From the NCBI GenBank assembly GCA_014730235.1, contig WJIO01000421.1, forward strand, positions 1 to 61,244: 61,244 bases of DNA, given 5' to 3'. Shown in pieces: positions 2,475 through 54,137 of this stretch; position 1 is the first letter of the stretch, and every line of letters begins with the position of its first letter. The DNA is from Candidatus Poribacteria bacterium. GTDB lineage: Bacteria; Poribacteria; DTPJ01; WJIO01. The notes beneath the pieces are model-generated. The model was not told the origin of the DNA and did no database searches. It worked only from the letters and a program-made list of their open reading frames with translations. Made by a program: the position numbers and the translations under genes.

Positions 2475-3251
2475 TTGAGAAAAACCATACTGATGGTTGG
2501 TCTGTTTATGTTTATTTTTATTAGTTGCCTTTATGCTTTTGATGATCCTGACCTTACTTTTTATTTCCCATTTGAGGCATTTGATGGTGATACAGCTCTG
2601 GATAAATCGGGCAAGGGTCACAATGGAACCATCAACGGCAATATAAAGATCGTTGATGGTGGCGGAAAAATAGGAAACGCCGCTGAATTTGAGCAGACCA
2701 GTTTTATTGATCTTGATGGTGCTAACTTTCCGCTGGAAGATATACCTGTGGAAGAGATGACTCTGATGGCCTGGATTAAACCGGAAAATACCGGTGGTGA
2801 TCATGCTATATTTAACGCCAGATCTGGTGATTCCACGTGGCTTATACATCCCGAAGCCAAAAGTTCCGGTCAATTTAGATGGCTGCTTCGTGCTGCTGGT
2901 GGTAACACTATCTTTGACATGAAGTTAGGTACGGTAGTCTGGGATGAATGGCAACATTATGCAGGGGTATATGACGGTGATAATGGTATTCTATACATAA
3001 ATGGTCAGAAAGAAGGCGAAATGGCTGGTGGTGCTGATATTTCCCCAGACTGGGCCCAGGGAGCACGTATTGGATATAATATTGATAATAACAGACCATT
3101 CACCGGTGTTATGGATGAGATTTCCCTGTGGAAACGAGCTTTGACACTGGATGAAATTACCGCAATTATGAATAATGGCCTTGAGGACTTCATGGCTGTT
3201 AATCCTGCTGAAAGTCTTTCTACCACATGGGGAAAGATTAAGAGCTTTTAG
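2475..3251 (+). CDS. Secreted LamG-domain protein with C-terminal W-motif (first of a tandem pair)
   Basis: The start is TTG at 2475, chosen because a perfect AGGAGG (2461-2466) lies 8 nt upstream. A Sec signal peptide (hydrophobic LMVGLFMFIFISCLYA) is followed by a LamG/concanavalin-like jelly roll. Its marks are YFPFEAFDG, DKSGKGHNGTINGN, the WIKPENTGGDHAIFNA strand and the closing GVMDEISLWKRALTLDEI helix typical of Laminin_G_3. Such domains usually bind carbohydrate or act in adhesion; no catalytic domain is present. The last residues, VNPAESLSTTWGKIK, match the short C-terminal motif found on six other proteins here. It is a close paralogue of the next gene. Confidence 0.85.
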   Translation: MRKTILMVGLFMFIFISCLYAFDDPDLTFYFPFEAFDGDTALDKSGKGHNGTINGNIKIVDGGGKIGNAAEFEQTSFIDLDGANFPLEDIPVEEMTLMAWIKPENTGGDHAIFNARSGDSTWLIHPEAKSSGQFRWLLRAAGGNTIFDMKLGTVVWDEWQHYAGVYDGDNGILYINGQKEGEMAGGADISPDWAQGARIGYNIDNNRPFTGVMDEISLWKRALTLDEITAIMNNGLEDFMAVNPAESLSTTWGKIKSF

Positions 3252-3362
3252 TTTTATGTTACCGTATGAATAACTTAATTTATTGTGTATATCTTGAGCT
3301 TCAATAACCAGATTTTCTAATTTCAACTAAAATAATTAACATTTCTTGGAGGGAGAAAAATA

Positions 3363-4133
3363 ATGAAGTATACAATTTTAGCCTCAATTATTGCTCTGGT
3401 CATGGTTGCTAGTGTATCAGCCGATCCAGACCTGGTTCTCTATTTCTCATTTGACAATTTTGGTGACGTTGTACCTGATGAATCCGGCAAAGGTAATGAC
3501 GGAATGATTATGGGTTCAGTCGTTATGGATGCTGATGGCAACCGTGGTGGTGCAGCCAGTTTCGCGGATGAAGGTTATATTGACCTTGAGGGGGCAAATT
3601 TCCCTGCCTCTGATATTCCTGTTGAAGCTATGACTTTATGCGCTTGGGCCAAAGTTGAAGATACTGGTGGACACCACGCAATATTCAACGCCAGAGCCAA
3701 TGACGAAACATGGGTAATCCATCCTGAACTTCGTAGTGATGGAGGTTTCCGTTGGTTGCTTCGCGCCGCTGGTGGTAACACCATATTTGACATCCGCGCC
3801 GGTTCATGGACTCCGGGTGAATGGGTTCACTTCGGTGGAGTATACAGTTCCACTGATAGCATGGCCACCCTTTATGTAAATGGTGTGGAAGCTGGCACAG
3901 AAGATGCCCGTATACCTAACGCTCAGATTGTCAGTGATTGGGGTATGGGTGCAAGAGTAGGTAAAAATATTGATGATGCCAGACCATTCACCGGTCTTAT
4001 GGATGACCTGTGCATATACAAGCGGGCCCTTACCGTTGATGAGATCGCTGAAGTTATGGCCGGCGGTCCACCCAGCGCAGCTCCTGTTTCTCCGGAAAGC
4101 AGTCTTGCTGTTACCTGGGGCAGCATTAAATAA
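3363..4133 (+). CDS. Secreted LamG-domain protein with C-terminal W-motif (second of the tandem pair)
   Basis: ATG at 3363 is preceded by GGAGGG (3348-3353). The signal peptide (ILASIIALVMVASVSA) is followed by one LamG jelly roll that aligns along its length with the previous protein: both share HAIFNAR, WLLRAAGGNTIFD and RPFTG segments. The tandem pair therefore arose by duplication. The C-terminus reads VSPESSLAVTWGSIK, again the shared motif, and ends exactly at the lysine. The ligand is unknown; the family suggests glycan or surface binding. A strong terminator follows at 4161. Confidence 0.85.
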   Translation: MKYTILASIIALVMVASVSADPDLVLYFSFDNFGDVVPDESGKGNDGMIMGSVVMDADGNRGGAASFADEGYIDLEGANFPASDIPVEAMTLCAWAKVEDTGGHHAIFNARANDETWVIHPELRSDGGFRWLLRAAGGNTIFDIRAGSWTPGEWVHFGGVYSSTDSMATLYVNGVEAGTEDARIPNAQIVSDWGMGARVGKNIDDARPFTGLMDDLCIYKRALTVDEIAEVMAGGPPSAAPVSPESSLAVTWGSIK

Positions 4134-4160
4134 ATCTTATTTCAATATATAGTCTTGATT

Positions 4161-4202
4161 AACCGTCAGTTCTGAGTTAAAATGAACTGGCGGTTTTTAT
4201 TT
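4161..4202 (+). terminator. Rho-independent terminator after the LamG pair
   Basis: AACCGTCAGTTC (4161-4172) pairs with GAACTGGCGGTT (4184-4195), with one mismatch, and is followed by TTTATTTTAG. This is a classic stem plus U-tract in the sense orientation of the LamG genes. Confidence 0.85.
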
Positions 4203-4205
4203 TAG

Positions 4206-4325: not shown

Positions 4326-4358
4326 TTTCTAATGTTAAAATAATAGAAGGGAATAATC

Positions 4359-5339: not shown

Positions 5340-5387
5340 TGGCTCAAATGACATTTTAATTTAATACATAAAAGGGCTTTTTGTTTA

Positions 5388-6118: not shown

Positions 6119-6142
6119 TTATACTGAACTAAAAAATGAAAT

Positions 6143-6180: not shown

Positions 6181-6196
6181 TTTATAGGAGATGAAT

Positions 6197-7378: not shown

Positions 7379-7410
7379 TTTGTGTTTATATTTGCTATAT
7401 TTATAATTAT

Positions 7411-7440
7411 AGGGCACGCGCTGGCGTGCCCTATATTCTT
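7411..7440. terminator. Bidirectional terminator between convergent genes
   Basis: AGGGCACGC (7411-7419), loop GCTG, GCGTGCCCT (7424-7432), followed by TATATTCTTTATTTT on the plus strand and preceded by an AT-rich stretch that gives U-rich RNA on the minus strand. It sits between the convergent cysteine desulfurase and propeller-protein genes. Confidence 0.85.
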
Positions 7441-9356
7441 TATTTTGCTATGGTGATCTTTTTTGTGGCGGCAAATTCGCCAGCTTTCAAGGTATAGAAA
7501 TAAACGCCGCTTGCCACACGCTCTCCTGTCTCGTTTGTGCCATCCCAACGTGCAGCTTTGTCTTTTGTTACATAAACGCCGGGTTCCTGACTTCCTAGTT
7601 TTATGGTCTTTATCAACTGGCCGTTTACGCTGTGTATATCTATAGATACTTCACCAGCCTGGGGTAGCTGATATGGTATCCAAACTTCCGGGTTTGCTGG
7701 ATTTGGGTAGCTGTCCAGAGCAGCGAATTCCAGGGTTGTTTTGGTTTGCGCTGCCGGAGCTGCTTTTGAGCCATGGGCAGGAATCAGATCAGGTGGGTCT
7801 TCCATGAATATCCTGAAATAGGGCCTACCCAGCCATACTTCTGTTCCACCGTCGCTATCTGTACCAAATTCCAGGTCACCCTGTGTAAAGGGATTACCTG
7901 TAGTAATAAAAAGCCCTACAGGTGATGAAACCATAGTACGAGCGCCGTAATTCAGAGGATTGCCAAATCCTGTTTGTGTTACCTGATACCATTTCCATCC
8001 GTTCCAGCTTTTCCACAGGTCAAAACCACCCTGGTTAGCCCATATAGAGGGCATCAGGTAATTTTCTAAAAGCTCTATAATGACCGGGGGCAATTCACCT
8101 ATATCTATAAGCTGTTGTAAAGCCGCTATATCCATAGGTAGATATACACTGGTTGAGTCAAGAACAGCGACATAAAGCCAACCTTCATGCTCTTCCATAG
8201 CCCATACATAACCGGCAAACAGGTTACCAAAACCGCCCTCTTTACCGCTTATGGGCCATTTTCTTCCCTGGTCTGTATCTACCTTGTCGCCGCAAACTAC
8301 CTGCCAGTAGCCGTTAGGCCATATCCTGGTGACACCCGGATATGTTCCCGGCGCGGGATTACCTTCGCCCACATACATTTTTCCCTTGAACGGTTGTAGA
8401 GTCATACCTAAAGGAATTTGCTGTCCTCGACCTGCGCCTCCTGTTATAATAGGTTCCCATTGATAAGGACGAACGCCGGTGGTTTTAGCTCTCCAGACTT
8501 CATATCCGTTAAAGTTAAATGTTCCCACATAAAGGTAATTTCTCAAAACAGCCATATCAAAAATACCAACGTTATCAAGATTACCAAAAGCAACCTCGCT
8601 GGCAGGTCTGAAAGTAATTGTATCACCTGCTACAGTACCCTCAAAGATTACCGGCACACCGCCTTCTGCAGATGCTGTATATAATTTGCCGTTATGGGAA
8701 ACCAAAGCCCTGTAAGAGCTTATATATCCACCAGGATCAGGGATTACGTCCCAATCAAATATAATTTCCATAGGTGTAAAGGTAATTCCGTCAGTTGTCC
8801 TGAGGATTCGCGCCGCCAGCCCGATTTCTGTAAAACCCCCAAAACCCAGAGGTGAGTTACCAATATAAAGCGCACCATCATGAACCACCATATCCCGATA
8901 GCCATGATCCAATGGCAGAGCAAACACTTCGGGATTATCGGGTGGATTTATAAATGGTGGGCCAATTTCCAGGTCTATAGTTTCTGACTTATAGGCCAGA
9001 CGCCACTGTTTGGTTGATGGTGTATATTCCCATACTTCAGCTCGCAGGTCTAATGCCAGGAGTTCCTGGAAAGTCTCTGGTATGATAACCTTGTTGTTCC
9101 CTCCCGGAGACTGACCCTGGCTGATAGCTCCGGATAATTCAAATATGTGCCTGCAAGTTCCTACATAAAACTTACCATTGAACCATGCACTCGACCAACC
9201 ATAACTATTCCCCGAATCGCCAATGCCATTGCCGGCAATCCTTTTAAAATCGCTAAAATACAGGGATCGGGAATAAACTTGAGAATAAGTTATAACGGTA
9301 AATAATAAGGTTAATAATAAAATTTTTAAAATACTTTTTGAAGATACCTTTTTCAT
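7440..9356 (-). CDS. Secreted beta-propeller-like protein with FlgD/T9SS type-A-like C-terminal domain (copy 1)
   Basis: 638 residues. A signal peptide (KILLLTLLFTVITYSQVYS) precedes repeated blades with the pattern N/D-G-x-L/F/M-Y-V/I-G (NGKFYVGT, DGALYIGN, NGKLYTAS, RNYLYVGTFN, KGKMYVGEG, EGWLYVAV), a kelch-like or other beta-propeller repeat. The last ~90 residues form an FlgD-Ig-like beta-sandwich starting at SYPNPANPEVWIPYQLP and ending SGVYFYTLKAGEFAATKKI...AK. That layout is the type-A C-terminal domain used for secretion by the Bacteroidetes type IX system. Function of the propeller is unknown. It is a paralogue of the neighbouring upstream gene. Confidence 0.8.
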   Translation of the reverse strand: MKKVSSKSILKILLLTLLFTVITYSQVYSRSLYFSDFKRIAGNGIGDSGNSYGWSSAWFNGKFYVGTCRHIFELSGAISQGQSPGGNNKVIIPETFQELLALDLRAEVWEYTPSTKQWRLAYKSETIDLEIGPPFINPPDNPEVFALPLDHGYRDMVVHDGALYIGNSPLGFGGFTEIGLAARILRTTDGITFTPMEIIFDWDVIPDPGGYISSYRALVSHNGKLYTASAEGGVPVIFEGTVAGDTITFRPASEVAFGNLDNVGIFDMAVLRNYLYVGTFNFNGYEVWRAKTTGVRPYQWEPIITGGAGRGQQIPLGMTLQPFKGKMYVGEGNPAPGTYPGVTRIWPNGYWQVVCGDKVDTDQGRKWPISGKEGGFGNLFAGYVWAMEEHEGWLYVAVLDSTSVYLPMDIAALQQLIDIGELPPVIIELLENYLMPSIWANQGGFDLWKSWNGWKWYQVTQTGFGNPLNYGARTMVSSPVGLFITTGNPFTQGDLEFGTDSDGGTEVWLGRPYFRIFMEDPPDLIPAHGSKAAPAAQTKTTLEFAALDSYPNPANPEVWIPYQLPQAGEVSIDIHSVNGQLIKTIKLGSQEPGVYVTKDKAARWDGTNETGERVASGVYFYTLKAGEFAATKKITIAK

Positions 9357-9575: not shown

Positions 9576-11453
9576 CTACTTTGCTATGGTAATTTTCTTT
9601 GTAGCGGCAAATTCGCCAGCTTTTAGAGTATAGAAGTAGATTCCGCTGGTTACTCGCTCTCCTGCCAGGTTTGTGCCGTCCCAGTAGGCAGCTTTGTCTT
9701 TAGTCATGTAAACGCCGGGTTCCTGGTTTCCCAACTGTATAGTCTTTATCAACTGGCCGTTTACACTGTGGATATCAATTGATACTTCAGCGTTATAGGG
9801 AAGCTGATAGGGTATCCAAACTTCCGGGTTTGCAGGATTAGGATAGCTTTCCAGAGCAGCGAATTCCAGAGTTGTTTTGGTTTGTGCTGTCGGAGCTGCT
9901 TTTGAACCATTGGTGGGAATCAGATCAGGCGGATTTTCCAGTAAAATTCTGAAATATGGTCTACCCAGCCACACTTCTGTTCCGCCTTCATAACCCATGT
10001 TATAGGCTGTATCACCCTGGGTAAAGGCGTTGGCGGTACACAGGAAAAGTCCTTCAGGTGATGATGTAAAGGAGCGAACACCATAGTTTAATGGATTGCC
10101 AAAACCTGTCTGGGAAATCTGGTACCACTTTCTGCCGTTCCAGCTTTTCCAAAGGTCAAAACCACCCTGGTTGGCTCTAATGGACGGTATGGTGTAATCT
10201 TGTAATAATGATCCAAGAATAGGTGGAAAGTCCGGTATATCTGAAAAGTCTATATAAGGTAGGAATGAACTGGTTACGTCATAAGTACCGGCATAAAGCC
10301 AGCCATCATGCTCTATCATGCGCCAGACATATCCTGTAAAAATGTTATCGAAGCCGCCCTTCATGCCGCTGATTGGCCATTTCCAGCCCACTCTATCTCC
10401 GCAGACTATCTGCCAGTAGCCATTGGGCCATATTCTTATTAAGCTGGGATAAGTTCCGGGAATTGGCATAGGCATACCTGTGCCTACATACATCTTGTTT
10501 TTGAATTCATACATACTCAGCACTGCACCGGCCATCTCTCCGCCGCCAGCGCCGTTTTCTATTATCCTTGTCCAGTTATATGGACGACCACCACTAACGT
10601 CAGACCTGTAGACTTCATAACCGTTGTAATTCATGGTACCGGCGTATATACAGCCTCTCATTTTTGCCAGGTCAAATATACCGGTGTTATCCGGGTTGCC
10701 AAAAGCGGGAAAACTTGCTGGTCTGAAAGTGGCCGTATCACCTTCTATAGTGACTTCAAAGACTATAGGTGTGCCACCTTCTGCTGGTGCTGTATAGAAT
10801 TTGCCGTTCAACGGAACCAGAGACCTGTAAGAGCTTATGAAACCTGCAGGTTTAGGCATTACATCCCAGTCAAAGACAATATTCATAGGTGTGAAGTTTA
10901 CGCCATCGGTGGTCTTGAGTATTCGGGGAGTAAGACCATACATGGATAACATTCCAAAACCTACAGGTACAGTCGTAATATAGAGCGCTCCATCATGAAC
11001 CAGCATTGCCCGATAACCATTATCCTTTGGGATCATGACTTGTGTTGGTGGAGTTGCAAAAGGAGGCCCAATAACAACAGGTTCTGGCGTAGTTTTAAAT
11101 GCAAGTCTCCACTGTTTTGTATTGGGTGTATACTCCCAAATTTCCCCGGCCAGGTCCAGTGATATTAGCTCTTCAAAAGATTCCGGCACATCTACGTTTG
11201 GAGCAGGCATTCCCATAAGGGACATCATTTCCAACACATAGCGTTCTGTCCCCACATAGAGCTTACCTTTAAACCATGCGCTGGACCATCCGTAGCTGTT
11301 GCCGGGATCGCCGAAACCGTTTTCGCTGATTTTTGTAAAATCACCTCTATACAGAGACCTGGCATAAGTTAGTTGGTTGGTTGACAATAAAAACAGAACA
11401 ACGAGGGCAAATGTCAACAACAATCCCATGCGATTTTTCCATATTTTTCGCAA
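9576..11453 (-). CDS. Secreted beta-propeller-like protein with FlgD/T9SS type-A-like C-terminal domain (copy 2)
   Basis: This is a full-length paralogue of the 7440-9356 protein: same SLYRGDFTKI start of the mature region, same GNSYGWSSAWF-GKLYVGT blade, same C-terminal NPANPEVWIPYQLP...TKKITIAK domain. The preferred start is TTG at 11453, because GGAGGA (11466-11461) lies 7 nt upstream. An ATG at 11468 is also in frame but has no Shine-Dalgarno and follows the rubrerythrin-like stop by only 2 nt. The signal peptide is LLLTFALVVLFLLSTNQLTYA. The two paralogues probably share a role as exported, surface-attached proteins. Confidence 0.8.
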   Translation of the reverse strand: MRKIWKNRMGLLLTFALVVLFLLSTNQLTYARSLYRGDFTKISENGFGDPGNSYGWSSAWFKGKLYVGTERYVLEMMSLMGMPAPNVDVPESFEELISLDLAGEIWEYTPNTKQWRLAFKTTPEPVVIGPPFATPPTQVMIPKDNGYRAMLVHDGALYITTVPVGFGMLSMYGLTPRILKTTDGVNFTPMNIVFDWDVMPKPAGFISSYRSLVPLNGKFYTAPAEGGTPIVFEVTIEGDTATFRPASFPAFGNPDNTGIFDLAKMRGCIYAGTMNYNGYEVYRSDVSGGRPYNWTRIIENGAGGGEMAGAVLSMYEFKNKMYVGTGMPMPIPGTYPSLIRIWPNGYWQIVCGDRVGWKWPISGMKGGFDNIFTGYVWRMIEHDGWLYAGTYDVTSSFLPYIDFSDIPDFPPILGSLLQDYTIPSIRANQGGFDLWKSWNGRKWYQISQTGFGNPLNYGVRSFTSSPEGLFLCTANAFTQGDTAYNMGYEGGTEVWLGRPYFRILLENPPDLIPTNGSKAAPTAQTKTTLEFAALESYPNPANPEVWIPYQLPYNAEVSIDIHSVNGQLIKTIQLGNQEPGVYMTKDKAAYWDGTNLAGERVTSGIYFYTLKAGEFAATKKITIAK

Positions 11454-11470
11454 TTTCTTCTCCTCCATAA

Positions 11471-18886: not shown

Positions 18887-19681
18887 TTAATTCAGCATCT
18901 TGATCCTTGCCCATGCAATACCAAGCTTATCTTTTGGTGTAACAGCCAGCCCGTCGGCCTGGAAATTTTGCTGTACTTCTGCCTGAGTAAGGGCTTTTTC
19001 GTAGATGCGCACCTCGTCTATATATCCCTGTATAGTATCAGTGTTTTTGCCGTCTGCCCGATCTCCGATACCAAAGAATAAATTTCCACCTACAAAGTTA
19101 CTGGAAAGAGAGTAAGTTTTTACAGCTACACCGTTTTCGTAGTATTTCACAGTCTTACCATCCCATGTTCCTACCAGGTGCAGCCAATCCTCCAGGGGTA
19201 TATCCTCCTGTATCATATCATCTTCAGCCGCACAGCTTTCCCCATCTGCTCTAAGGAAAAAGCCATGCTGATCATCGTCATCATCGTAATAAAGACTGGC
19301 CACGTTTAGATTACCTGCGTCGGTATCATCCAGGGATAAAATACGGTTCCAACTATCGTCAAGGGCATTTATAAAGACCCAGCATTCCAGGGTTATCTGC
19401 TGATAATCTCTGTTAATTACCTCAGAATTAATCAGGATACAATCGGCATCACCATCGAGAAGCAGACATTCACCTATTTTACCTGGGGCCAGCTCCGGAT
19501 CACCTTTGATCTCTCCATGACTCTCGCCAAAAACATCCTGGACAATATTATCGGCTATAGTAGCTTCATCCATAGGCCAGTAAGCCAGCAAACCATTAGT
19601 GACAGCACCAGCCCTGACTAATTGTGGATAGAATAAGATTATTAAACATGATAGAGAAAAACTTACTAAAAAACCTTTCAT
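18887..19681 (-). CDS. Secreted LamG-domain protein with C-terminal W-motif
   Basis: The start is ATG at 19681, chosen because AGGAGG lies 11 nt upstream and a signal peptide (GFLVSFSLSCLIILFYPQLVRA) begins there; the frame extends further upstream but into the preceding gene's end. One LamG jelly roll: GLLAYWPMDEATIAD, LLLDGDADCILI, ITLECWVFINALDDSWNRI, WLHLVGTWDGKTVKYYENG and the closing GYIDEVRIYEKALTQAEV. It ends VTPKDKLGIAWARIKMLN, the shared W-motif with three extra residues. Last gene of a minus-strand unit after a P1 peptidase and a glycosidase-like gene. Confidence 0.83.
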   Translation of the reverse strand: MKGFLVSFSLSCLIILFYPQLVRAGAVTNGLLAYWPMDEATIADNIVQDVFGESHGEIKGDPELAPGKIGECLLLDGDADCILINSEVINRDYQQITLECWVFINALDDSWNRILSLDDTDAGNLNVASLYYDDDDDQHGFFLRADGESCAAEDDMIQEDIPLEDWLHLVGTWDGKTVKYYENGVAVKTYSLSSNFVGGNLFFGIGDRADGKNTDTIQGYIDEVRIYEKALTQAEVQQNFQADGLAVTPKDKLGIAWARIKMLN

Positions 19682-19713
19682 AATTTCAATTTCCTCCTTT
19701 GTAAATTCATGAT

Positions 19714-20790
19714 TTAACCAATTCCATAACCGCATTTTCTCATACATTCTATCACTTTTTCAACAGGCACAGCATGTGCTGTATTACCATCGCGTCCGAC
19801 CATCTTATTGGCCCGAAACAGGGAATTTATTATAGCCTCTTCAATGGATTCGATACATGCTCTGAAAAAACTGGTGATGTTTTTCCATACCAGGGACATA
19901 TCATGAGAAGCACCCTGGAATAGTGGAACGGTGGAAAAAGCCAGAGCAATGTCGCCGCTTCCGTGAGTGGCCATCCCACCGGTTCGGGCCAAGCCAAAGC
20001 TGGCCCTTCTGGCAATGCGTCTCAGACCTACAGGATTAAACGGTGCATCGGTGGCAATTACCATAATTATCGATCCCTTTGATTCTTTTTCAGACTTCTG
20101 CTGGATCATCCTTCCCACAGGTACTCCGTCAATACACAGATCCCCGGTACCTCCCATATTATTCAGGGCCAATGCCCCCAGGACGTAGGTCTCTCCGCCG
20201 CAGTCAACCAGCCTGGATGCCATACCGATACCGGATTTATAACCAAAACTGCGCATTCCTGTACCTGCGCCAATACATCCTTCACTCAGGTCTTTTGAGG
20301 CATTTTCCAAAGCGTTAAAGACATGTTCCCGGTCAACATGCATGCCCCATATATCGCTTAGATTGCTGTCGTTACACTCCATAACAACAGGATTGACGGA
20401 TAATATGCGATGGTCTATTTGCATCATCCATTCCACCAGATGTTGACTGACTTTTCCTACATTCAGGGTATTGGTAAGCAATACAGGTGTTTCTATCTCC
20501 CCCAGTTCATCAATTTGCATCAATCCTACAGATTTTCCAAAGCCGTTTATAACATCAACGGCAGCCGGGAGTTTATTTCTATGGGGTGACATATCCTTAT
20601 CCGGTATTATAGCTGTTACGCCGGTTCTCACAGGGCCTTTGCCCCTGACAAGTTCCCCTGCACCCCAGACTAATGTTGAATGTCCAATTTTTACATCGGC
20701 TACATCACATATAGTGTTGGTTTCCCCGATAGGCATTATGCCAATTTTTATCCCTAGTTCTCTGGCTCTTGGTCGTTCAGATGTTTGCAT
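19714..20790 (-). CDS. P1 family peptidase (DmpA / beta-aminopeptidase type)
   Basis: A 358-residue Ntn-hydrolase-like aminopeptidase. N-terminal TNTICDVADVKIGHSTLVWG and VRTGVTAIIP, the conserved GAGTGMRSFGYKSGIG, and HGSGDIALAFST (the Gly-Ser where DmpA self-cleaves and exposes the nucleophilic serine) are all in place. The family trims N-terminal residues from small peptides or beta-peptides. No signal peptide, so cytoplasmic. Gap to the upstream glycosidase-like gene is 13 nt, so they are likely co-transcribed. Confidence 0.88.
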   Translation of the reverse strand: MQTSERPRARELGIKIGIMPIGETNTICDVADVKIGHSTLVWGAGELVRGKGPVRTGVTAIIPDKDMSPHRNKLPAAVDVINGFGKSVGLMQIDELGEIETPVLLTNTLNVGKVSQHLVEWMMQIDHRILSVNPVVMECNDSNLSDIWGMHVDREHVFNALENASKDLSEGCIGAGTGMRSFGYKSGIGMASRLVDCGGETYVLGALALNNMGGTGDLCIDGVPVGRMIQQKSEKESKGSIIMVIATDAPFNPVGLRRIARRASFGLARTGGMATHGSGDIALAFSTVPLFQGASHDMSLVWKNITSFFRACIESIEEAIINSLFRANKMVGRDGNTAHAVPVEKVIECMRKCGYGIG

Positions 20791-28245: not shown

Positions 28246-29100
28246 TTACTGCTTTACATCACCCCATACCGTTGATAATTTACCAGCGGGTTCAACTGGT
28301 GCCAGAGTACCGAGATAACCCATAATATTTTCGTGGAGTTTAATCATAGCATCGGCAAATTCACAATCCTCCTCCACTGAACGGAAAACAGTAAATCGCC
28401 AACCGCTTATTATGATTGTTCCGTCACCAACTTCATATTCAACCAGGGGGCATACCTGACCAAACCAACCCTGGGGGTGGGGCTCCTGATAAGCCATTCC
28501 CAAAACCCTACCCTCTTGCGGCGGGCCGGCTGGATAAAAATCACACATGGCATCATGACCATAACAGTCTATATTGAAACCTTCTGCAGGATCTAACCCT
28601 AATTCATCAAAACCGGCAAAAACCGGATGTTCTTCCTCACCAGGAGCGGCTATTATACCCGATGGTGAATGGTCAACATTAGGAGCACAAAACCTTGGTT
28701 CCAGGCTTTCCAATTCCAGATCGAATACATAGTGAAAAGCTACCTGGGAAAGAAAAAGAGATCCACCGGATTCTACAAAATCCATAAAAGCGTTCATGGT
28801 TGCCTGCTCCAGAAACACAGGTGGTATGTCCTGCTGATTTGCCCTGTGCCACCATACTACCTGGAAATCCCCAAGTTCAACCGAATTCCCATTTTCATCC
28901 TCAAATTTACCCGATCCTGCTGGATGAATAAGAGTCGCGTTATAATTATCCACAGCCCAGTTATATTCAGCTTCATCCTCTGGTGGCACATCAGCCTCTG
29001 CTTCCAGAAAAGCCATGTTAATACCAGCGGCAAAGATAACCTGAGCAGAAATCAAACTAATAAAGCAAATAAGTACCGATATATAGAACTTATTCTTCAT
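28246..29100 (-). CDS. Secreted GATase1/ThuA-like-fold protein with C-terminal W-motif
   Basis: 284 residues with a signal peptide (YISVLICFISLISAQVIFA). The core alternates beta and alpha, with VVWWHRANQ, MNAFMDFVESGGSLFLSQVAF and the late strand GDGTIIISGWRF. This resembles glutamine-amidotransferase-like (ThuA/DUF4960-type) domains common next to carbohydrate genes; the fold call is tentative and no catalytic triad is obvious. The end VEPAGKLSTVWGDVKQ is the shared C-terminal W-motif. Reading direction and flanking repeats suggest a single-gene unit. Confidence 0.7.
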   Translation of the reverse strand: MKNKFYISVLICFISLISAQVIFAAGINMAFLEAEADVPPEDEAEYNWAVDNYNATLIHPAGSGKFEDENGNSVELGDFQVVWWHRANQQDIPPVFLEQATMNAFMDFVESGGSLFLSQVAFHYVFDLELESLEPRFCAPNVDHSPSGIIAAPGEEEHPVFAGFDELGLDPAEGFNIDCYGHDAMCDFYPAGPPQEGRVLGMAYQEPHPQGWFGQVCPLVEYEVGDGTIIISGWRFTVFRSVEEDCEFADAMIKLHENIMGYLGTLAPVEPAGKLSTVWGDVKQ

Positions 29101-30438: not shown

Positions 30439-30717
30439 TTAATAAGACATCTTTATTCCACCCCAAACGGTTGTTATAGGTGGCACACCGGTCAGCTTTT
30501 TAACTTGGGTCGGTGTATCAATACCCACGCGCACAACCTCGTATTCAGTATCAGCCGTAGGTTCAGCCAAATCAAAGCGAGCGTTTACAGCATACAGTGA
30601 ATCTTCAAATTTTGCTATCGTCGTAGGAACCCGGAAATCTGGGTTGGTTATATACTCCATAACAACCCCCGAAGTAAGATCAGAACTTACCTGCACCACA
30701 GCGATCTGGTTCTGCTT
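30439..30717 (-). pseudogene. 3' remnant of a secreted SMP-30/gluconolactonase-like gene, W-motif retained
   Basis: Only the last ~90 codons are left. The residues VPTTIAKFEDSLYAVNARFD and EYEVVRV look like the final blade of SMP-30/NHL-type propellers that I know as a much longer exported protein. The open frame continues upstream of its only ATG (30699) to about 30717 without a start or signal peptide, and runs almost into the stop of the DUF6785-like gene (30733). The tail LTGVPPITTVWGGIKMSY keeps the C-terminal W-motif. A deletion has presumably fused this remnant to the 3' end of the membrane-protein gene. Confidence 0.6.
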
Positions 30718-39216: not shown

Positions 39217-40269
39217 ATGAGAAAGCTTTTTGTTCTCATAATTTCTATTTTGATGGCTTTAACAATACAGGCCTTTGCGTGTTTTAATCCCACCGATATT
39301 TTTGCTACAGAAGTAGTATTAAACAAACCGGGAATTAATTACGACCTGACATTAATAAAGGCGGCTGATAACGTTACATCGAAAGATGGAACTTATTCTT
39401 ACCGTTCCCATTATGACAGTCGGGTTGCTGTAATTCTGGAAGAGATCAATGAGGGGGAACCGGTAAATTTAAAGGGATTAAGCGTTAGAGTGCAGATACC
39501 CACCCGGGAAACCAGAAGAGTTAATATTGTAGCCAGTGTTGAATTTGAATTGGAAGGTTTAATTGTGGATAACCTGGATAAAGATTTGCTAACTTCCCTG
39601 GGCTACAGTATTGATGTTGATGATATGGAAATTTTCAGACCAGAGGAACCGGGTGATATTGAAGATCCTATATCTCCAATTAATAACGCCGTTTTTCTGG
39701 AAAAAGATAATATTTTAATATCTATGATGGATATTGTAGTTTCTGATAGAAATAAAGTTATAGCGAGGTTCGAAGTCATAGATCAGCGGGAAATTGGCGA
39801 ACAACAGGTCAATGAATTTGGGCATATACTTAAATCCTTTGGTGTTGATGAATCGGTTATAGGTCAGATGTCTGAGAGTATAGAAAAATATGAAAATCAG
39901 GATCTAGCCGAAGCCGTTGATTTGGATAAAGAGAGTTTTGATTTCAAATCAGCCCTTAGAACCGAATTGGATTGGCTTAACATCAATGAAATCATAAAGG
40001 GTATTGAAAGAGAAGATATTACAGCTATTGCTGATATTGCAGAAGCGGGTTATGCTGGATGGAACTCAAGAATAGTTTACGACAGCGGTAAATGGATACC
40101 CTATGTCCAGACAGATAATCCCACTGTATTCCGGTCGCAGGACTGCGGGGGTTTTGACCCTGAAATTCTACCCTGGAATAATGAATCAATTATATTGCCA
40201 GCACCTAGCAGCGTCAGTCCAGAAGCTAAAGCTGTTATGACATGGAGCAGTATTAAGAACGGTATGTAA
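39217..40269 (+). CDS. Secreted protein of unknown function with C-terminal W-motif
   Basis: 350 residues. GGAGG (39201-39205) precedes ATG. The signal peptide is LFVLIISILMALTIQAFA, then CFNPTDIFATEVVLNKPG. The body is acidic, mixed alpha/beta, with no recognised domain; a phrase resembling a metal-binding or structural loop, QDCGGFDPEILPWNNES, stands near the end. The tail VSPEAKAVMTWSSIKNGM fits the shared W-motif. It is a single gene ended by the 40301 terminator. Confidence 0.72.
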   Translation: MRKLFVLIISILMALTIQAFACFNPTDIFATEVVLNKPGINYDLTLIKAADNVTSKDGTYSYRSHYDSRVAVILEEINEGEPVNLKGLSVRVQIPTRETRRVNIVASVEFELEGLIVDNLDKDLLTSLGYSIDVDDMEIFRPEEPGDIEDPISPINNAVFLEKDNILISMMDIVVSDRNKVIARFEVIDQREIGEQQVNEFGHILKSFGVDESVIGQMSESIEKYENQDLAEAVDLDKESFDFKSALRTELDWLNINEIIKGIEREDITAIADIAEAGYAGWNSRIVYDSGKWIPYVQTDNPTVFRSQDCGGFDPEILPWNNESIILPAPSSVSPEAKAVMTWSSIKNGM

Positions 40270-46567: not shown

Positions 46568-46660
46568 TCATGCCTGAAAATATGTAAACCCTTTTTTTCA
46601 TTATGCGTTTTAAGAAGTCGTAAGCAAAGATAATTCCCTAACTTGATCAGGAGTTGTATA

Positions 46661-49600
46661 TTGCATAGCATATCCAAAATCCGGTGCGACAAGAAATTAA
46701 AATTATTTACCCCACCGTTATTTTTGTTGTATATAATCATTTATGGATTAACGGTTTTTTGTCCATCCTTTGCCAAAGAAGCTAAAACCGAATTATCAGC
46801 AAAAAAACATGATAAATTTAATATACATCTTTTGCAAAAAGACGAAACTCTATCCCATGTAGCTCTAAGATATTACAAGGATATTTCAATGGTAGGATTG
46901 CTGGCAAGGTATAATGATATAAACGATGTGCGGCGTATACCCGAAGGCAAAGAAATTAAAGTTCCCTATGAAATTTCATATACAATCAAACCCAATGATT
47001 CATTATCGGAGATAGCCCAGAAACTTCTGGGAAGCTGGCAGAAATACAGCATAATTGCTGAATATAATAAGCTGGAAGATCCCGGATTTGTGATCGCTGG
47101 TAGAGTTTTGAGGATACCGCTGCTTAAGCCTGATACTGAACCCCCAGAACCAGAAGCACCCCCTGCTGAAGTTGTGGAAGAAGACAAGCCAGAAGAACCT
47201 GAAAGAAAGAAAGTAGAAAAAGAATATCCAGTCGTTACCGAATCAGAAAAAGAAGAGAAAACCAAAGAGATAATAGAACCTACAAAAGAAACAGAAGAAG
47301 ATGTTTCCACAGAACCGGATGTAGATATAGAAAAAGAAACTAAACCGGAAACGGTGGTTGAGCCGCAGGAACCGGTTGAGGTAGAAACTGAAACCAAAGT
47401 TATTCCGGAAATATCCGAAGAACCCCCATCCCCTGCCTCAACGGAAGAATTAAAACAGGAAAAACCCAAAGACCATACCGCACCTATAGGCCCTATGCCT
47501 CAATCCAAATTCAGACTCGTCAGGGTAAAGCCAGATGATAAGGAAGAAGAAATCATACAGGAAGAATTTGGTGTGGAGCAGGAATGGCCCCTGGCCTCCC
47601 CCTGGGCCAGAAAAAAACTACAACCATCAGAAGAGGAAATAACCGAACCGGACAGGCTGTCGGCTGTATTGGATGCACTGAAAACCTGGGATCGTCCTAT
47701 TGAGGAATTAGAGGATAGCAAAAAAGCCCGATTTGACGAAAAGGGCATAAACCTGCCTATGGATTCACTGCTTCAGGTAACAGGATATAAATCCATCACA
47801 ATCCAGTATAATAAAACCCACTATTTTGGAAAATCCGATATAAACCGATACAGCGGATATTATTCCGGTGGCTATGGTTCAGGCTTTTATGATTATGATT
47901 ACGGTTATGATTCCTATGGTTACGGTAGTAGCTACAATAGCTACAGCAGTGGTTACAGCAGTTATGGAAGCGGCTACAGTTCCTCCAGGTATGGTTATGG
48001 CTATGGTCAACGAGAAGGCCCAAATATTGAACAGGAATTTGACATTCATATTCATGGACGAGTTGGTAAGCATACTCATGTGGATGTTGATTACAATGAT
48101 ACCGGCAGATCTCAATATGGCGGAATGGGTCAGAAGGAGCAGAAAATTTCTGTGTGGTATGAGGGCGATCCGGAGGATATAATCCAAAGAGCTGCATTCG
48201 GTGACATTCGCCTTGAATTACCCAACAGTCGCTTTCTTAATATGGGCAGAACCCTCTTTGGCGCACAAATGGTGGCAAAATTGGGTGATCTTAAATTAAC
48301 TGCCTTTGGAACCAGAACCAAAGGTATCAAAGGAACCTGGACATCCAAAGGTCAGTCCAGAAGGGCCGGAGGTGGAACCGGTACCAGGATCATGGATATT
48401 AATTATATTAAAGAAAGATATTATGCCATAAATGTGGATGAAGACGGTTTTATTAATGATTCGTATTTACCAATAGAAACAGGCAGCGAGCAGATTTATA
48501 TAGACGATGGTATCGGTACAAATAACGATTCAGGTATATCAACAGCCCAGGGATATTTCGACTATCAATACCCCGGTGATGATTACAGCATTGATTACTC
48601 TACCGGACAGATAGAATTTTTAAAGAATATATCCACAGGTTTTAAAATTGTGGTAGCTTACAGATATCGGGGTGGTGATGGTGGTTCTGTGGGTAATCCG
48701 GATTCTGTATTTGTGGATGATGATGATGATGGTATAACGGATGGATTAGACGATCCTGATGATCCTGTGGGTTATGTAGTTATAAAAGATTCAGCGGCTC
48801 ATGGTTCGGAACTGCGGAATGTATACAGTCTTGGAAACAGGAATATCGGCAGACGCAACTTTGAATTAAGCATCTGGCGTGAGGGTGCAACGGATTCTTT
48901 TGAAACAGGTGATGGTAAGGTAGCATATATACGTATATTCGGCTTGGATTCGGACAACGACGGTCTGGTTGATCCTGAACTTATAGACTTTGAAAGGGGA
49001 ATACTTACTTTCCCAAATCCCAAACCCTTTATCATTGATGATCCTGCAAGTCCTTATTATCAATACAGGGATGAATTAAATAACGAGGCAATATACTCAG
49101 AAAACCCCAACTATTCCGATCAGAAATACATTATCCAGGCGGATTATTCATACCAGACACCGAGTTTTTATCTTGGAAGATTAAATATAATACCTGAAAG
49201 TGAAGAAGTAAGGGTAAACGGTCAAAGATTGAATAGAAATACAGATTATATGATGATCTATGAGGTGGGCTCAGTAGAGATATTCAGGGAACTGGATGAA
49301 TATGACGAAATTACAATTGATTATGAATATATGCCTTTTGGCGGTCAATACCAGCAGACAATAGCAGGTATATGGGCTGAATATTCGTGGAAACCGGGCA
49401 AGAAAAAGGAAGAAAAGAAAAAAACTCACACAGATATGTATAGGGAAGACGGGGCCAGTCCCTTCTCCCAGGATACAGACAGCAGTGATTCCGACTACAG
49501 TCGTTATGGAAGCTCAAGCTCAAGTTTCGGTAACTATGGGTCTTTTGGCGGCAGCTATAATAGCTATGGAAGCAGTTATGGAAGTAATTACGGTAGTTAT

Positions 49601-52600
49601 GGTGGTTATGATAGCTTTAGTTCATATAGAGGCAGAAGAGGAAGTTTTGGATCAAGCCGGAGTTATGGTTCATCCCGCAGCAGTTTTTATACACCCCGAA
49701 CTGGTGAAGGCTTGAACCTCTCTATGGGATATGTATATAATACAGGAGAAAGAACTTCCGCAATTCCCGACGTTAATTCCGCTCCAAGTCGTCTCCAGGC
49801 TTTGGTATTTGGTGGAAACTGGGGTGATAAATTCAATATGGCCAGGGTTTTTGGACTTCTTCCCTTTGTATCAATAAAAGGCGAAGTGCCTTTTACGGTT
49901 TACCTGGATGGTGAAGCTGCCTATAGCCGTAATAATCCCAACAGCGTTGGCTATGCCATGATTGACAGTATGGAAGGTGCAAAAGAGAGCGCAAAAATGC
50001 CCACCTATAAGTTCTCCTGGAAAACTGCAAGCGTGCCAATGGATACGGAATCGGATAACGATATTTCAATTGATAACAGGGCGATTTTTCATATAGAAGA
50101 ATATGACGAAGATGCCAGCTACGGCAACTATATGAAAAACCGGGAAACCTCCGCTATTGAAATTAATCCCTTATCCAGAGCAACCCAGCAGCATCTTGTT
50201 ATGGAGATCGGGTATGATTTAAACGATGCTGCATCATGGGGAGCTTTAGCCTATCCTGTTTCTAACACCGGTGCAGATTTTAGCGAATATGAATTCCTTG
50301 AAATATGGATGAAGGTTGACGGTGATGAAAATGTAAATCTGCATCTGGATTTTGGTGTTATAAGTGAAGATACGGATGATGATTTTCGTTTGGATAGCGA
50401 AGACCTGCCCAGGGATATGCTCGACAGCAACGGTGATCATAAAATAGATATACTCGATCTGGATAAAGAAGACCTGCCGGAAGAGCATAAATATAAAGGG
50501 AACGGAAGCCTTGACCTGCGTGAAGATAACGGATGGGTCTACAACGATTTTAGTGGAAATGTAATTGACACTATTGGCAGGGAAAACTCGGTTCTGGATT
50601 CTGAAGACCTGGATGGAGACGTGGTATTGGATACAAACAATTCATATTTCGGTTTTACCATACCATTAAATAATATACCCAATGACTGGATCCGCAAAAA
50701 AACCAGCAAGACAGGATGGATATTCCTGAGTATACCTCTGGAAGAGGCTCTTCCAAAAGGACGTTCACCAAGCTGGGCAGTTATTAAGCATATGCGATTA
50801 TGGTTAGAGAAAAATATTCCCGGTTCTATAAATGGTAAATTCCAATGGTATTCAATAACTGTCGCTGGTAACAGATGGGAGAAAGGCCTTGTTGTTGAAA
50901 ATGAAACAGGCAAGCTTTCAGAAGATCTCACAAATGAAATTCTGGTTGGTACAAAAAACAACCACGAATTTGAAGATTACCTGGAAGAATACAGAAAGAT
51001 AGAGGATAACGAAGATTTTGATGTCCTGCATCCATATGTGGAAAGCGCATTTGGTCTGGAAAGCGACCAGAAAGAGCAATCATTAACTCTGAATTATGAT
51101 TTACAACCGGACACAACTGGTTACACCATGCGGGAATTATCCGGGGTTCGTCGTGGCGAAGGTCAGGATTTTTCAAAACATAGAGAGATGCGTATATGGT
51201 TGCATGGTGATGGTAGCGGTTTACCTTTCTTGATCAGGATGGGAAGCAATACCGATGATTTCGGAGCAGGAAGTCCTATAACAACAAAAGATGATGACAA
51301 TAACGATCCATATAACAATTATAACTATACTTATTCGTCATATTCATCAAGGTATGGAGCAAAAGGTTATTATGAGTATATCCTTCCCCTTGATTTTAAA
51401 GGATGGAAACTAATAAAAATATCATTTGCGGATAAAGATGATGATGGACATCCGGATGAATTAACGCCTATAAACGATCCTGCCATTAACAATATCCACG
51501 AAATACTTGTGGGTATTAAAAACGAATATCAGTATCCTGTAACAGGTGAAATATGGGTTAATGAAATACATTTAACAGATCCATTTGTCAAATCCGGCTG
51601 GGCAAGACGTTTTAATTTATCCGCAGATTTAGCCAATATTTTTGATATCAGAGCTGGTTATGCAAAGCAAGACAAGAATTTTGAAAATTCCGCAGGTCAA
51701 ACAGGCAGATCAAGCATGCGTTCTTATGGCTACAGCACCAGTAGTTATGATTATAATGTTGACACCCAATTTAAACTAATCTCATGGCTGCCTATGAGTT
51801 TTGGTATAAGTCACCGGGAATCGGAAAGCAGCAGTCTTTACGGAATAATCAGTTCCTATCAAAGCGGTCTAACAAAAACCGATAACAAGACTTTCAGCAT
51901 TAGCCTTGATAAAAGCCCTATCCCTCGGTTGTCTTTTTCATACGACAAGCAGAGACAGTGGAATGAAGTCAGAGGGGTGGAATTGAGTGACCTTTATTCA
52001 TCGGATGTGGGATATTCTCTTGGCAGTGTTTTGACAATTAACCTTGATTATTCCCATGAAGTATTGACAACGGAACAGGATTCATCGGAAGATGACACCA
52101 CTCCAACAAGTTCTTATTACTATTACGGCAGAGATACCGATACAATAGTTGACCGAGGCGGCATATCCCTTAGAATATCCCCTATAAAAAGCTTTAGCCT
52201 TGATCCATCTTATGAAGTCAGAAGGGAAATGGAGCGGGAGAAAGACGAAGATGACATAGAAGGTGGATTTCTTATTTCATCCAGAGACCAAAGAATATCC
52301 CTTAGACCGACCCTGAGAAAATTCTGGGGGGTTAAACCATCAATAAACGGCAGATATGGTTTCAGTGAAGACTGGTTTGGCGGCGAAAAGGACGTATCCC
52401 TCAACACAGATCTCGGTTTTGGGTTAAACTTTACCTTTAAGGACTGGTTTAAACCCAAGAAAGGGAAAGATGAACGAGGACGGGATAGGTTAACGGAATT
52501 GGGTAAAGATATTGACCTGTTGACTGAAGAAGACCTTCGCTCCCTGAGTGAGGAAGATATACAGGAACTCCTGGATGAAAAAACTCAGCAGGAACGGGGT

Positions 52601-53536
52601 AACTGGATCGAAAAGGAAAAGGATGAAATAAAGGAAAAGCTGCGTCAGCGAAAACTCGAGGAAGAAATGGATATAGAGCCTGATGCTGAAGGTGGTAATT
52701 TTGCCTTCCGGGCCTTAAAAAGAAGTGTATCAACTTTTTCCATTAATACTGATTTAAGATACAGTATCAATGACTACCTTCGCCGTTTAGATCCCACAAT
52801 GGGATTTTCGGATATAATGAAGCTGGAAGATGAATCCGAATTCCGAACAAGGTCTACCAAAACCAGAAGGTTTACCATCAGAGCAAATATGGATCCCATG
52901 ACGTGGGCTTCTCTGGGAACCAATATGTCACTAACCAACAGGTTTACTAAATCATCAGGAACAGCATCCGATTCTGATTCATCAACCGTTGGCGGCGATA
53001 TTAAAATATTTAGCTCTCAGACATCCTTTATGCTTAAATACAATATGACCACTCAGGATTCCAGCAACCAGAGCGGTAAAATATCCGACAGCATATCCCA
53101 TAATCCATCAGTTACTGTGCGAAAAAGCTGGTCTTCAGGAATCGGCTCATCTCTGGGATTTAGAATTACCTTCCGAGATTATGAACGTGGTGGAATAGAG
53201 ACAAGGTCAAGAATTTATGCACCAAACTTTAATATAGATTACGATCTGCATGTAAAGGGTGATGTTGATCTACCATTTGTACGCAAAATAAGCCTCGATC
53301 ATAATCTGGATATGAGCAATACAGTTTCAGTAATGGTACGTCGGGAAAAGCTGGGAATAAACCGGGATGAGAAATCAGAGCAGTATGGAACTTCTCTTGA
53401 TGTTAGTTATAATCTACGACAAACACTCAGAGCAAGTATGAGATTCTCTTTGGACTATAACCATGATAGGGTGGAAAAAGATGCAGATTATATATCTGTT
53501 TCAGGGTCCCTCATGCTAAGGGGTGAGTTTAGATAA
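46661..53536 (+). CDS. sprA: SprA/Sov-like outer-membrane translocon with N-terminal LysM domains
   Basis: About 2290 residues, the normal size of T9SS SprA/Sov. The start is TTG 46661 after AGGAG (46649-46653); a signal peptide (PPLFLLYIIIYGLTVFCPSFA) follows. Two LysM modules (about 53-101 and 105-155) are followed by a Pro/Glu-rich spacer (~160-285). From ~450 on the SprA pattern appears: EFDIHIHGRVGKHTHVDVDY, DIIQRAAFGDIRLELPNSRF, GRTLFGAQMVAKLGDLKLTA, FKIVVAYRYRG and EIWVNEIHLTDP, ending in amphipathic beta-strand repeats that close with an aromatic/charged residue. Asp-rich calcium-type loops (DSDNDGLVD, DDDDDGITDG, DKDDDGHPDE) occur between. Unusual Tyr/Gly/Ser-rich stretches lie at ~395-450, 943-1010 and 1546-1570. 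In Bacteroidetes this protein is the pore through which T9SS cargo passes. I place it by motif memory, not by search. Confidence 0.75.
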   Translation: MHSISKIRCDKKLKLFTPPLFLLYIIIYGLTVFCPSFAKEAKTELSAKKHDKFNIHLLQKDETLSHVALRYYKDISMVGLLARYNDINDVRRIPEGKEIKVPYEISYTIKPNDSLSEIAQKLLGSWQKYSIIAEYNKLEDPGFVIAGRVLRIPLLKPDTEPPEPEAPPAEVVEEDKPEEPERKKVEKEYPVVTESEKEEKTKEIIEPTKETEEDVSTEPDVDIEKETKPETVVEPQEPVEVETETKVIPEISEEPPSPASTEELKQEKPKDHTAPIGPMPQSKFRLVRVKPDDKEEEIIQEEFGVEQEWPLASPWARKKLQPSEEEITEPDRLSAVLDALKTWDRPIEELEDSKKARFDEKGINLPMDSLLQVTGYKSITIQYNKTHYFGKSDINRYSGYYSGGYGSGFYDYDYGYDSYGYGSSYNSYSSGYSSYGSGYSSSRYGYGYGQREGPNIEQEFDIHIHGRVGKHTHVDVDYNDTGRSQYGGMGQKEQKISVWYEGDPEDIIQRAAFGDIRLELPNSRFLNMGRTLFGAQMVAKLGDLKLTAFGTRTKGIKGTWTSKGQSRRAGGGTGTRIMDINYIKERYYAINVDEDGFINDSYLPIETGSEQIYIDDGIGTNNDSGISTAQGYFDYQYPGDDYSIDYSTGQIEFLKNISTGFKIVVAYRYRGGDGGSVGNPDSVFVDDDDDGITDGLDDPDDPVGYVVIKDSAAHGSELRNVYSLGNRNIGRRNFELSIWREGATDSFETGDGKVAYIRIFGLDSDNDGLVDPELIDFERGILTFPNPKPFIIDDPASPYYQYRDELNNEAIYSENPNYSDQKYIIQADYSYQTPSFYLGRLNIIPESEEVRVNGQRLNRNTDYMMIYEVGSVEIFRELDEYDEITIDYEYMPFGGQYQQTIAGIWAEYSWKPGKKKEEKKKTHTDMYREDGASPFSQDTDSSDSDYSRYGSSSSSFGNYGSFGGSYNSYGSSYGSNYGSYGGYDSFSSYRGRRGSFGSSRSYGSSRSSFYTPRTGEGLNLSMGYVYNTGERTSAIPDVNSAPSRLQALVFGGNWGDKFNMARVFGLLPFVSIKGEVPFTVYLDGEAAYSRNNPNSVGYAMIDSMEGAKESAKMPTYKFSWKTASVPMDTESDNDISIDNRAIFHIEEYDEDASYGNYMKNRETSAIEINPLSRATQQHLVMEIGYDLNDAASWGALAYPVSNTGADFSEYEFLEIWMKVDGDENVNLHLDFGVISEDTDDDFRLDSEDLPRDMLDSNGDHKIDILDLDKEDLPEEHKYKGNGSLDLREDNGWVYNDFSGNVIDTIGRENSVLDSEDLDGDVVLDTNNSYFGFTIPLNNIPNDWIRKKTSKTGWIFLSIPLEEALPKGRSPSWAVIKHMRLWLEKNIPGSINGKFQWYSITVAGNRWEKGLVVENETGKLSEDLTNEILVGTKNNHEFEDYLEEYRKIEDNEDFDVLHPYVESAFGLESDQKEQSLTLNYDLQPDTTGYTMRELSGVRRGEGQDFSKHREMRIWLHGDGSGLPFLIRMGSNTDDFGAGSPITTKDDDNNDPYNNYNYTYSSYSSRYGAKGYYEYILPLDFKGWKLIKISFADKDDDGHPDELTPINDPAINNIHEILVGIKNEYQYPVTGEIWVNEIHLTDPFVKSGWARRFNLSADLANIFDIRAGYAKQDKNFENSAGQTGRSSMRSYGYSTSSYDYNVDTQFKLISWLPMSFGISHRESESSSLYGIISSYQSGLTKTDNKTFSISLDKSPIPRLSFSYDKQRQWNEVRGVELSDLYSSDVGYSLGSVLTINLDYSHEVLTTEQDSSEDDTTPTSSYYYYGRDTDTIVDRGGISLRISPIKSFSLDPSYEVRREMEREKDEDDIEGGFLISSRDQRISLRPTLRKFWGVKPSINGRYGFSEDWFGGEKDVSLNTDLGFGLNFTFKDWFKPKKGKDERGRDRLTELGKDIDLLTEEDLRSLSEEDIQELLDEKTQQERGNWIEKEKDEIKEKLRQRKLEEEMDIEPDAEGGNFAFRALKRSVSTFSINTDLRYSINDYLRRLDPTMGFSDIMKLEDESEFRTRSTKTRRFTIRANMDPMTWASLGTNMSLTNRFTKSSGTASDSDSSTVGGDIKIFSSQTSFMLKYNMTTQDSSNQSGKISDSISHNPSVTVRKSWSSGIGSSLGFRITFRDYERGGIETRSRIYAPNFNIDYDLHVKGDVDLPFVRKISLDHNLDMSNTVSVMVRREKLGINRDEKSEQYGTSLDVSYNLRQTLRASMRFSLDYNHDRVEKDADYISVSGSLMLRGEFR
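47847..48012 (+). repeat. Tyr/Gly/Ser-rich low-complexity coding segment 1 in the SprA-like gene
   Basis: About 55 codons of repeated S-Y-G / Y-G-Y / S-S-Y units (e.g. YDSYGYGSSYNSYSSGYSSY). The matching DNA repeats (TAYGGTTAYGG, AGYTACAGC) give long spurious open frames on both strands. A related segment lies at 49490-49690. Confidence 0.8.
49490..49690 (+). repeat. Tyr/Gly/Ser-rich low-complexity coding segment 2 in the SprA-like gene
   Basis: About 67 codons with units such as SSFGNYGSFGGSYNSYGSSY and GSFGSSRSYGSSRSSF, including Phe-Gly and Arg. It resembles the composition of prion-like or FG-type disordered segments. A shorter stretch (NNYNYTYSSYSSRYGAKGYY) is at about 51310-51370. Confidence 0.8.
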
Positions 53537-53537
53537 T

Positions 53538-54137
53538 TTACCTTATTGCACTCCAGACTGTAAAAGTATATTTTGATCTTTCAATTAAAAAAGCTGGAGT
53601 ATTTGGCCTCCCGGGGGTAATAACAGAAAAGACGACAAAATCCATCTGATTGTTATCGGTATCAAGCCCGTCAGGTCGTCTTCCGATGCTGTATCCTGAA
53701 ATATCCAGAGTCGGTTCACCTTCCCCTGCAAAATTATTATCGACAAAATCGCCATATCCCACAGCGTCGGCAATTTCATTTCCCATATACAGCAATATAT
53801 TGTCAGGCCCGTTCTGAAAATTCACTTTAGGATTTACTACATCCGCATTTTCCACAGAATTGTCCTGAGCTACAACAAAGTAACCATCATGGGGTATTTC
53901 ATATCCTGCCAGTTCTATTCGGTTATATTCCTTTCCGCTGCCTCCATTAATCCCCAGGAGATAATATTCATCCAGGTTCATTCCCGGTTGTCCGGTCAAT
54001 TCAACAAAACAACCGGTATCAACTCCCGGAGAATCATAGAGGACTTCATTTATTACCAACCGGGCGAATACATAGTCAGAATAAAATAGGAAAAATAAAA
54101 TAAAAACAATGATTAAATTTTTTCGCCCCGCACACAT
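53538..54137 (-). CDS. Secreted lamin-tail-domain (LTD) protein with C-terminal W-motif variant
   Basis: 199 residues. The signal peptide LIIVFILFFLFYSDYVFA is followed directly by LVINEVLYDSPGVDTGCFVE, the hallmark start of LTD folds, then LDEYYLLGINGG, GYFVVAQDNS and DAVGYGDF. The tail IERSKYTFTVWSAIR matches the W-motif with Arg in place of Lys. The gene begins 25 nt inside the 3' end of rpe (different frame) and converges on the SprA-like gene with no gap, so the W-motif protein and the translocon gene end 1 nt apart. Confidence 0.75.
   Translation of the reverse strand: MCAGRKNLIIVFILFFLFYSDYVFARLVINEVLYDSPGVDTGCFVELTGQPGMNLDEYYLLGINGGSGKEYNRIELAGYEIPHDGYFVVAQDNSVENADVVNPKVNFQNGPDNILLYMGNEIADAVGYGDFVDNNFAGEGEPTLDISGYSIGRRPDGLDTDNNQMDFVVFSVITPGRPNTPAFLIERSKYTFTVWSAIR

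Follow-up and report, generated by a model that had tools for sequence, protein, structure and literature searches.

Many exported proteins of a Candidatus Poribacteria genome end in a short conserved peptide that resembles an address label for delivery to the cell surface, possibly through type IX secretion (T9SS). This tail had been reported in an earlier note on seven proteins encoded in a stretch of 61,244 nt (here referred to as the window). Our analysis confirmed that the tail is real and far commoner than the seven cases first reported. It is phylum-wide in Poribacteria and is also found in at least two unrelated lineages.

All seven tails were present in the sequence of the window at the positions where they had been claimed (Table 1). 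The same note had attributed a signal peptide to every complete member, and we indeed found an N-terminal one in the six complete ORFs; the start region is absent from the seventh, ORF 30439-30699. The description of this last ORF as an SMP-30 remnant remained unconfirmed, as Pfam assigns it no domain. Concerning the bodies of the other proteins, the three LamG assignments and the DUF4960/ThuA-like one stood, while the LTD match fell below the Pfam cut-off. The protein encoded at 39217-40269, previously listed as unknown, resembles in its N-terminal part TIGR04292, a "CGP-CTERM-anchored Cys-rich protein."

Table 1. Positions in the window of the seven tails, the SprA/Sov-type translocon and two type A sorting domains
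Feature	Position	Strand	Description
Tail VNPAESLSTTWGKIKSF	3198..3248	+	C-terminus of LamG protein 2475-3251
Tail VSPESSLAVTWGSIK	4086..4130	+	C-terminus of LamG protein 3363-4133; disordered outside the LamG fold (AlphaFold)
Tail VTPKDKLGIAWARIKMLN	18890..18943	-	C-terminus of LamG protein 18887-19747
Tail VEPAGKLSTVWGDVKQ	28249..28296	-	C-terminus of DUF4960/ThuA-like protein 28246-29100
Tail LTGVPPITTVWGGIKMSY	30442..30495	-	C-terminus of 86-aa gene fragment 30439-30699; no Pfam domain
Tail VSPEAKAVMTWSSIKNGM	40213..40266	+	C-terminus of protein 39217-40269; TIGR04292 match
Tail IERSKYTFTVWSAIR	53541..53585	-	C-terminus of LTD protein 53538-54137; most divergent of the seven
SprA/Sov-type T9SS outer-membrane translocon, LysM near N-terminus	46643..53536	+	TIGR04189, PF14349; candidate exit route
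Type A T9SS sorting domain (CTD) of 7440-9356	7443..7709	-	TIGR04183, 31.1 bits, cut-off 23
Type A T9SS sorting domain (CTD) of 9576-11468	9579..9845	-	TIGR04183, 29.7 bits, cut-off 23

Anatomy and C-terminal position of the tail

The consensus of the tail is A-V-x-P-x-[GD]-K-L-x-T-T-W-[GA]-x-I-K, located 0 to 8 residues ahead of the stop and built around the core Thr-Trp-Gly-x-Ile-Lys. Counted from the Trp, the positions are A(-11), V(-10), x, P(-8), x, [GD](-6), K(-5), L(-4), x, [TS], T, W(0), [GAS], x, I and K(+4), and mostly 0 to 5 residues separate the final Lys from the C-terminus. The only substitution of the Trp, by Phe, was seen in a Tat-type phosphotriesterase-family protein (L123:2644-3738).

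The conserved Val, Gly, Thr, Ile and Lys are each encoded by several synonymous codons, which indicates that conservation and selection act on the peptide and not on the DNA. The position of the tail near the stop codon would also suit a signal in the RNA or DNA, i.e., a 3' gene element of which the shared peptide is a by-product; given the codon variation, we consider this reading hardly credible.

In the AlphaFold2 model of the LamG protein 3363-4133 (mean pLDDT, 86), residues 242 to 256, which are exactly the tail, have a pLDDT of <50. Similarly, residues 303 to 325 are <50 in the AlphaFold model of a PD40 propeller (pLDDT, 85). Hydrophobic moments favored a strand in Poribacteria and in genome G203 and both helix and strand in genome G217 (both from outside the phylum), with z-scores that are inflated by related sequences. 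Taking the moments and the AlphaFold disorder together, the tail may be either a helix or a strand.

To place the seven tails in their genomic context, we analyzed the window and 60 further stretches, about 957 kb of a 5.53-Mb genome. Most of these stretches come from contigs on which the motif, searched as DNA, has a match; tagged genes are therefore overrepresented, and our tests compare positions and protein classes within the sample. In these 957 kb, the pattern W[GSA]x[IVL][KR] occurred 70 times in called ORFs, and 54 of these occurrences were 9 or fewer residues from the C-terminus, compared to 2 of the 27 matches obtained with the reversed motif. A genome-wide motif search with a shuffled control had been proposed in the earlier note. 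Here, 53 of the 696 proteins of at least 100 aa were tagged, against a mean of 0.71 and a maximum of 4 in 300 runs in which the last 30 residues were shuffled. With a profile of the tail at a threshold of at least 6 bits, we detected 110 C-termini versus 2 other places among 1,299 ORFs from several genomes; as the profile was trained partly on the same tails, this positional contrast is evidence but not a measure of sensitivity. Scaling the strict-pattern count by the share of the sampled tagged proteins that it captures gives a rough estimate on the order of 150 tagged proteins for the whole genome.

Signal peptides were called by a simple hydropathy rule and not by SignalP. By this rule, 49 of the 53 tagged proteins carried a signal peptide, compared to 146 of the 643 other proteins (Fisher P = 7e-25). 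Here and in other genomes, those lacking a called signal had miscalled starts, were fragments, lay at contig edges or, in a single case, had a Tat signal; this protein (L123:2644-3738) is the one Tat substrate among the tagged proteins, and all others with an intact start are exported by Sec. No lipobox was detected in the tagged set. The tail had been said to be absent from cytoplasmic proteins, and among the tagged proteins we found none that was recognizably cytoplasmic.

Independence from the protein body and spread across lineages

When the tagged proteins of this genome (n = 56) were grouped by the similarity of their bodies, we obtained 20 clusters, one of which, a LamG cluster, holds 28 proteins. 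The bodies include LamG, 3-keto-disaccharide hydrolase, Kelch, PD40, F5/8C and esterase domains, together with metalloprotease-like, phosphotriesterase, LTD and DUF4960 proteins. LamG proteins make up 27 of 54 tagged proteins, often encoded in tandem, as could be expected if the tail were the terminal strand of a single inherited domain or a hitchhiking product of gene duplication. Against this explanation stand the 20 unrelated body clusters, the recurrence of the tail in other lineages on other domains and the disorder of the tail in the LamG and PD40 models. Moreover, LamG matches stop before the tail: in a LamG protein of 258 aa, the Pfam match spans residues 82 to 228 and ends ahead of it. 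We therefore agree with the earlier note that the tail is separate from the domain that precedes it, and regard inheritance with a single domain as very improbable. A PDB fold search with the LamG model yielded the common lectin-type fold and nothing else. Tandem arrangement was also seen on contig C8 of genome G007 (L069-L071), in which about 30 PD40 beta-propeller genes follow one another, nearly all of them encoding both a signal peptide and the tag.

We then compared genomes by counting the DNA pattern for T-W-[GA]-x-[IVM]-K. Nearly every one of the 84 genomes of the phylum gave more matches to this pattern than to its backwards control, often 30 to 70 versus 2 to 6; the enrichment was weak in two groups. 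A strict DNA pattern run over GTDB 220 gave 4 matches, all titled Candidatus Poribacteria, from which we inferred the phylum; this pattern is too strict to exclude other taxa. Genome G003, which seemed motif-free at first, was considered as a tag-free genome for a partner screen and was rejected since it carries a W-x-x-L-K form. Consequently, no genome of the phylum is a clean negative for an absence screen.

Among 155 genomes outside the phylum, most pattern counts were at background, and six genomes stood out (pattern versus control): G203 (30 versus 2), G151 (22 versus 0), G217 (21 versus 2), G181 (15 versus 0), G186 (12 versus 0) and G111 (10 versus 1). In G217, in stretches picked by motif matches, 14 proteins have C-termini such as ATEPTTWGGIKQLYR, of the type TWGxIKALYR immediately before the stop, and nearly all of these tails have exactly four residues after the Lys. 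In 22 contigs of G203 that were not picked by motif, 9 of the 12 occurrences of W[GASC]x[IVLM][KR] were tails, such as NVVTTTWGVIKADF, with the form TWGxIKADF before the stop. The tagged proteins of both genomes are exported or are fragments, except for one with an unclear start. None of the NCBIfam tag models matched the nine tagged proteins scanned from lineages outside the phylum. We detected no tag in the 40 kb of G151 examined and no convincing C-terminal tag in G116, which has 5 pattern matches; the latter result indicates that small pattern excesses mean little.

Candidate machinery for reading the tail

Tagged proteins combine an N-terminal Sec signal (Tat in one case) with a C-terminal signal, as T9SS clients do. 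The window encodes a SprA/Sov-type protein that matched TIGR04189 with an E value of 9e-54 and 182 bits, under the cut-off of 200, and PF14349 above its cut-off. The earlier note had suggested looking for SprA, PorV and PorU alongside the tail, and homologues of all three were present in each of the 20 genomes tested. Every genome had SprA matches, 13 to 25 PorV family matches over the cut-off, PorU-like sortases (one over the cut-off in this genome, 460 versus 420 bits) and 26 to 78 matches to the type A CTD (47 in this genome). The outer-membrane parts expected for a T9SS client are thus encoded here, with SprA under the TIGR04189 cut-off. In a previous study of Poribacteria, CTDs were noted and no Por structural genes (Kamke et al. 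2014, PMC3909097), which left the export route open. The SprA homologue of the window and the PorV- and PorU-like genes elsewhere contrast with that statement.

No protein carried both the tag and the CTD, among 29 CTD proteins and about 110 tagged ones. The two signals do occur on related proteins: members of one esterase family carry the tag in G000 and G001, the CTD in G000 and G015, and neither in G016, and at one locus, of two members with 37% identity over 317 residues (E = 2e-55), one ends in the tag and the other in the CTD. G217 and G203 also have CTD-like domains. At locus L170 of G217, consecutive genes alternate between CTD, tag, CTD and tag.

A conserved peptide on a flexible linker would suit any common binding partner of exported proteins, and the tail might accordingly be a periplasmic docking or chaperone-binding peptide for retention, quality control or scaffolding, and not a sorting signal. 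This reading is at odds with the homologous esterases, which carry either the tag or the T9SS CTD at the same place. It is also at odds with protein 39217-40269, which resembles a CGP-CTERM-anchored family of archaea but ends in the tail, where its archaeal relatives, judging from the TIGR04292 family name, presumably have a CGP-CTERM anchor. We consider a docking peptide of this kind quite improbable.

We also examined whether the tag is connected to individual T9SS components. An association between SprA and tagged genes was rejected, as tagged genes make up 3 of 26 SprA neighbors, which is not significant relative to expectation. PorV copy number showed no clear relation to tag number (Spearman 0.40, P = 0.08, 20 genomes, phylogeny ignored). 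The idea that the tag is the final strand of the type A CTD was likewise rejected because CTD tails went unmatched by the complete tag profile. Its columns -6 to -1 alone scored 4.0 on CTD ends versus about -0.3 on other proteins (shuffled CTD tails, 1.39; standard deviation, 0.49); since CTDs are related to each other, which inflates z-scores, this likeness in the strand part stays a hint.

Alternatively, the tail could be a sorting or anchoring tag for a separate, non-T9SS machine, for example one that involves DUF6785/DUF6784 polytopic membrane proteins. DUF6785 genes were found 2 or fewer genes from tagged genes 14 times, compared to 4.1 expected (P = 8e-5 before correction). They number 7 to 41 per genome, and this number tracks that of the tags (Spearman 0.73, P = 2e-4, 20 genomes, phylogeny ignored). 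A separate machine would also be in line with the silence of the GldM model in the 20 genomes, but this model was silent in all control genomes too. On the other side, DUF6785 has no invariant Cys or His, and hence no sortase-like active site is evident, and the closeness of the genes may simply reflect shared substrate-use gene clusters. A separate machine of this type appears unlikely to us. Three DUF6785/DUF6784 proteins are encoded in the window, at 30733-32655, 32764-34683 and 44648-46567.

Several findings weigh against a reading by T9SS: the GldM model is silent, as it is in the controls, SprA neighbors are not enriched in tagged genes, and PorV numbers show no clear link to those of the tag while DUF6785 numbers do. 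We infer that the tail is very probably a sorting signal on exported proteins that is read after export. That it is read by T9SS is a more tentative proposition, a shade short of evenly balanced.

A proposed sorting role compared with known systems

The explanation that we favor as a whole, with somewhat better than even confidence, is that of a dedicated sorting tag with a PorV-family receptor and SprA. According to this model, the tail would act as a dedicated C-terminal sorting tag of about 15 to 20 residues. The tagged protein would first be exported by Sec, rarely by Tat, and its unstructured tail would remain exposed after export. The tail would bind a single shared receptor, probably by forming a short edge strand that shows the Trp, the Ile and the near-invariant Lys, and docking would direct the protein to the outer membrane or the cell surface. 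The most likely receptor would be a PorV-family shuttle of T9SS, acting together with the SprA translocon. The tag may serve small lectin-like and propeller proteins in the way that the type A CTD serves large ones.

With such a tag, much of the exported and probably surface-located proteome could be listed for uncultured Poribacteria, which are sponge symbionts, and for other lineages; its reach in this genome would be about 150 proteins, compared to 47 known-CTD matches. Should the tag prove to be a T9SS signal, it would represent a minimal form of such signals and raise the question of what T9SS really reads. To us, it is a toss-up whether about 15 residues without any domain form a complete signal for outer-membrane secretion or anchoring, serving about 150 proteins here and used throughout Poribacteria and in at least two further deep lineages, with dedicated PorV-like shuttles or another machine as its reader. 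A complete signal of this length would be far shorter than the T9SS signals found in the literature.

We found no published description of the tail in the open-access literature, and no NCBIfam or Pfam model covers it. PEP-CTERM, GlyGly-CTERM, MYXO-CTERM and LPXTG tags are similar in being short C-terminal tags on many unrelated exported proteins of one genome. In these tags, a hydrophobic transmembrane helix is followed by a tail of basic residues. The position profile of the tail shows no hydrophobic helix followed by basic residues, and the NCBIfam tag models were unmatched, in keeping with the earlier statement that it contains neither a hydrophobic helix nor a known tag.

Within T9SS, several unrelated C-terminal signals are used with different shuttles, including types B and C (PMC12618676, PMC10202324). 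Type B CTDs have about 100 residues and five motifs, and type C requires a 100-aa region; NCBIfam gave no match of this kind for the tail. No known T9SS signal has fewer than 40 residues, and the short CTDs of Prevotella intermedia have 40 to 55 residues in three strands (PMC11969387). The 22 C-terminal residues of a type A CTD reportedly suffice for the secretion of GFP (PMC10202324, citing PMC3120885). CTDs also have a near-invariant functional Lys close to the C-terminus (PMC10994853).

TIGR04183, the type A CTD model, was absent from the families listed for the 54 tagged proteins (25 of 27 families) and from those listed for the tagged proteins of the window, and a local CTD profile matched none of about 110 tagged proteins. 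No folded Ig-like beta-sandwich of about 70 to 90 residues was seen at the tail, whose pLDDT is <50 in both models. The tail and the type A CTD share their C-terminal location, their occurrence on Sec-exported proteins of many folds, a Lys near the end that is functional in the CTD, and host genomes with SprA, PorV and PorU homologues. They differ in that the type A CTD is a folded domain of about 70 to 90 residues, whereas the tail described here comprises about 15 to 20 residues with an almost invariant Trp.
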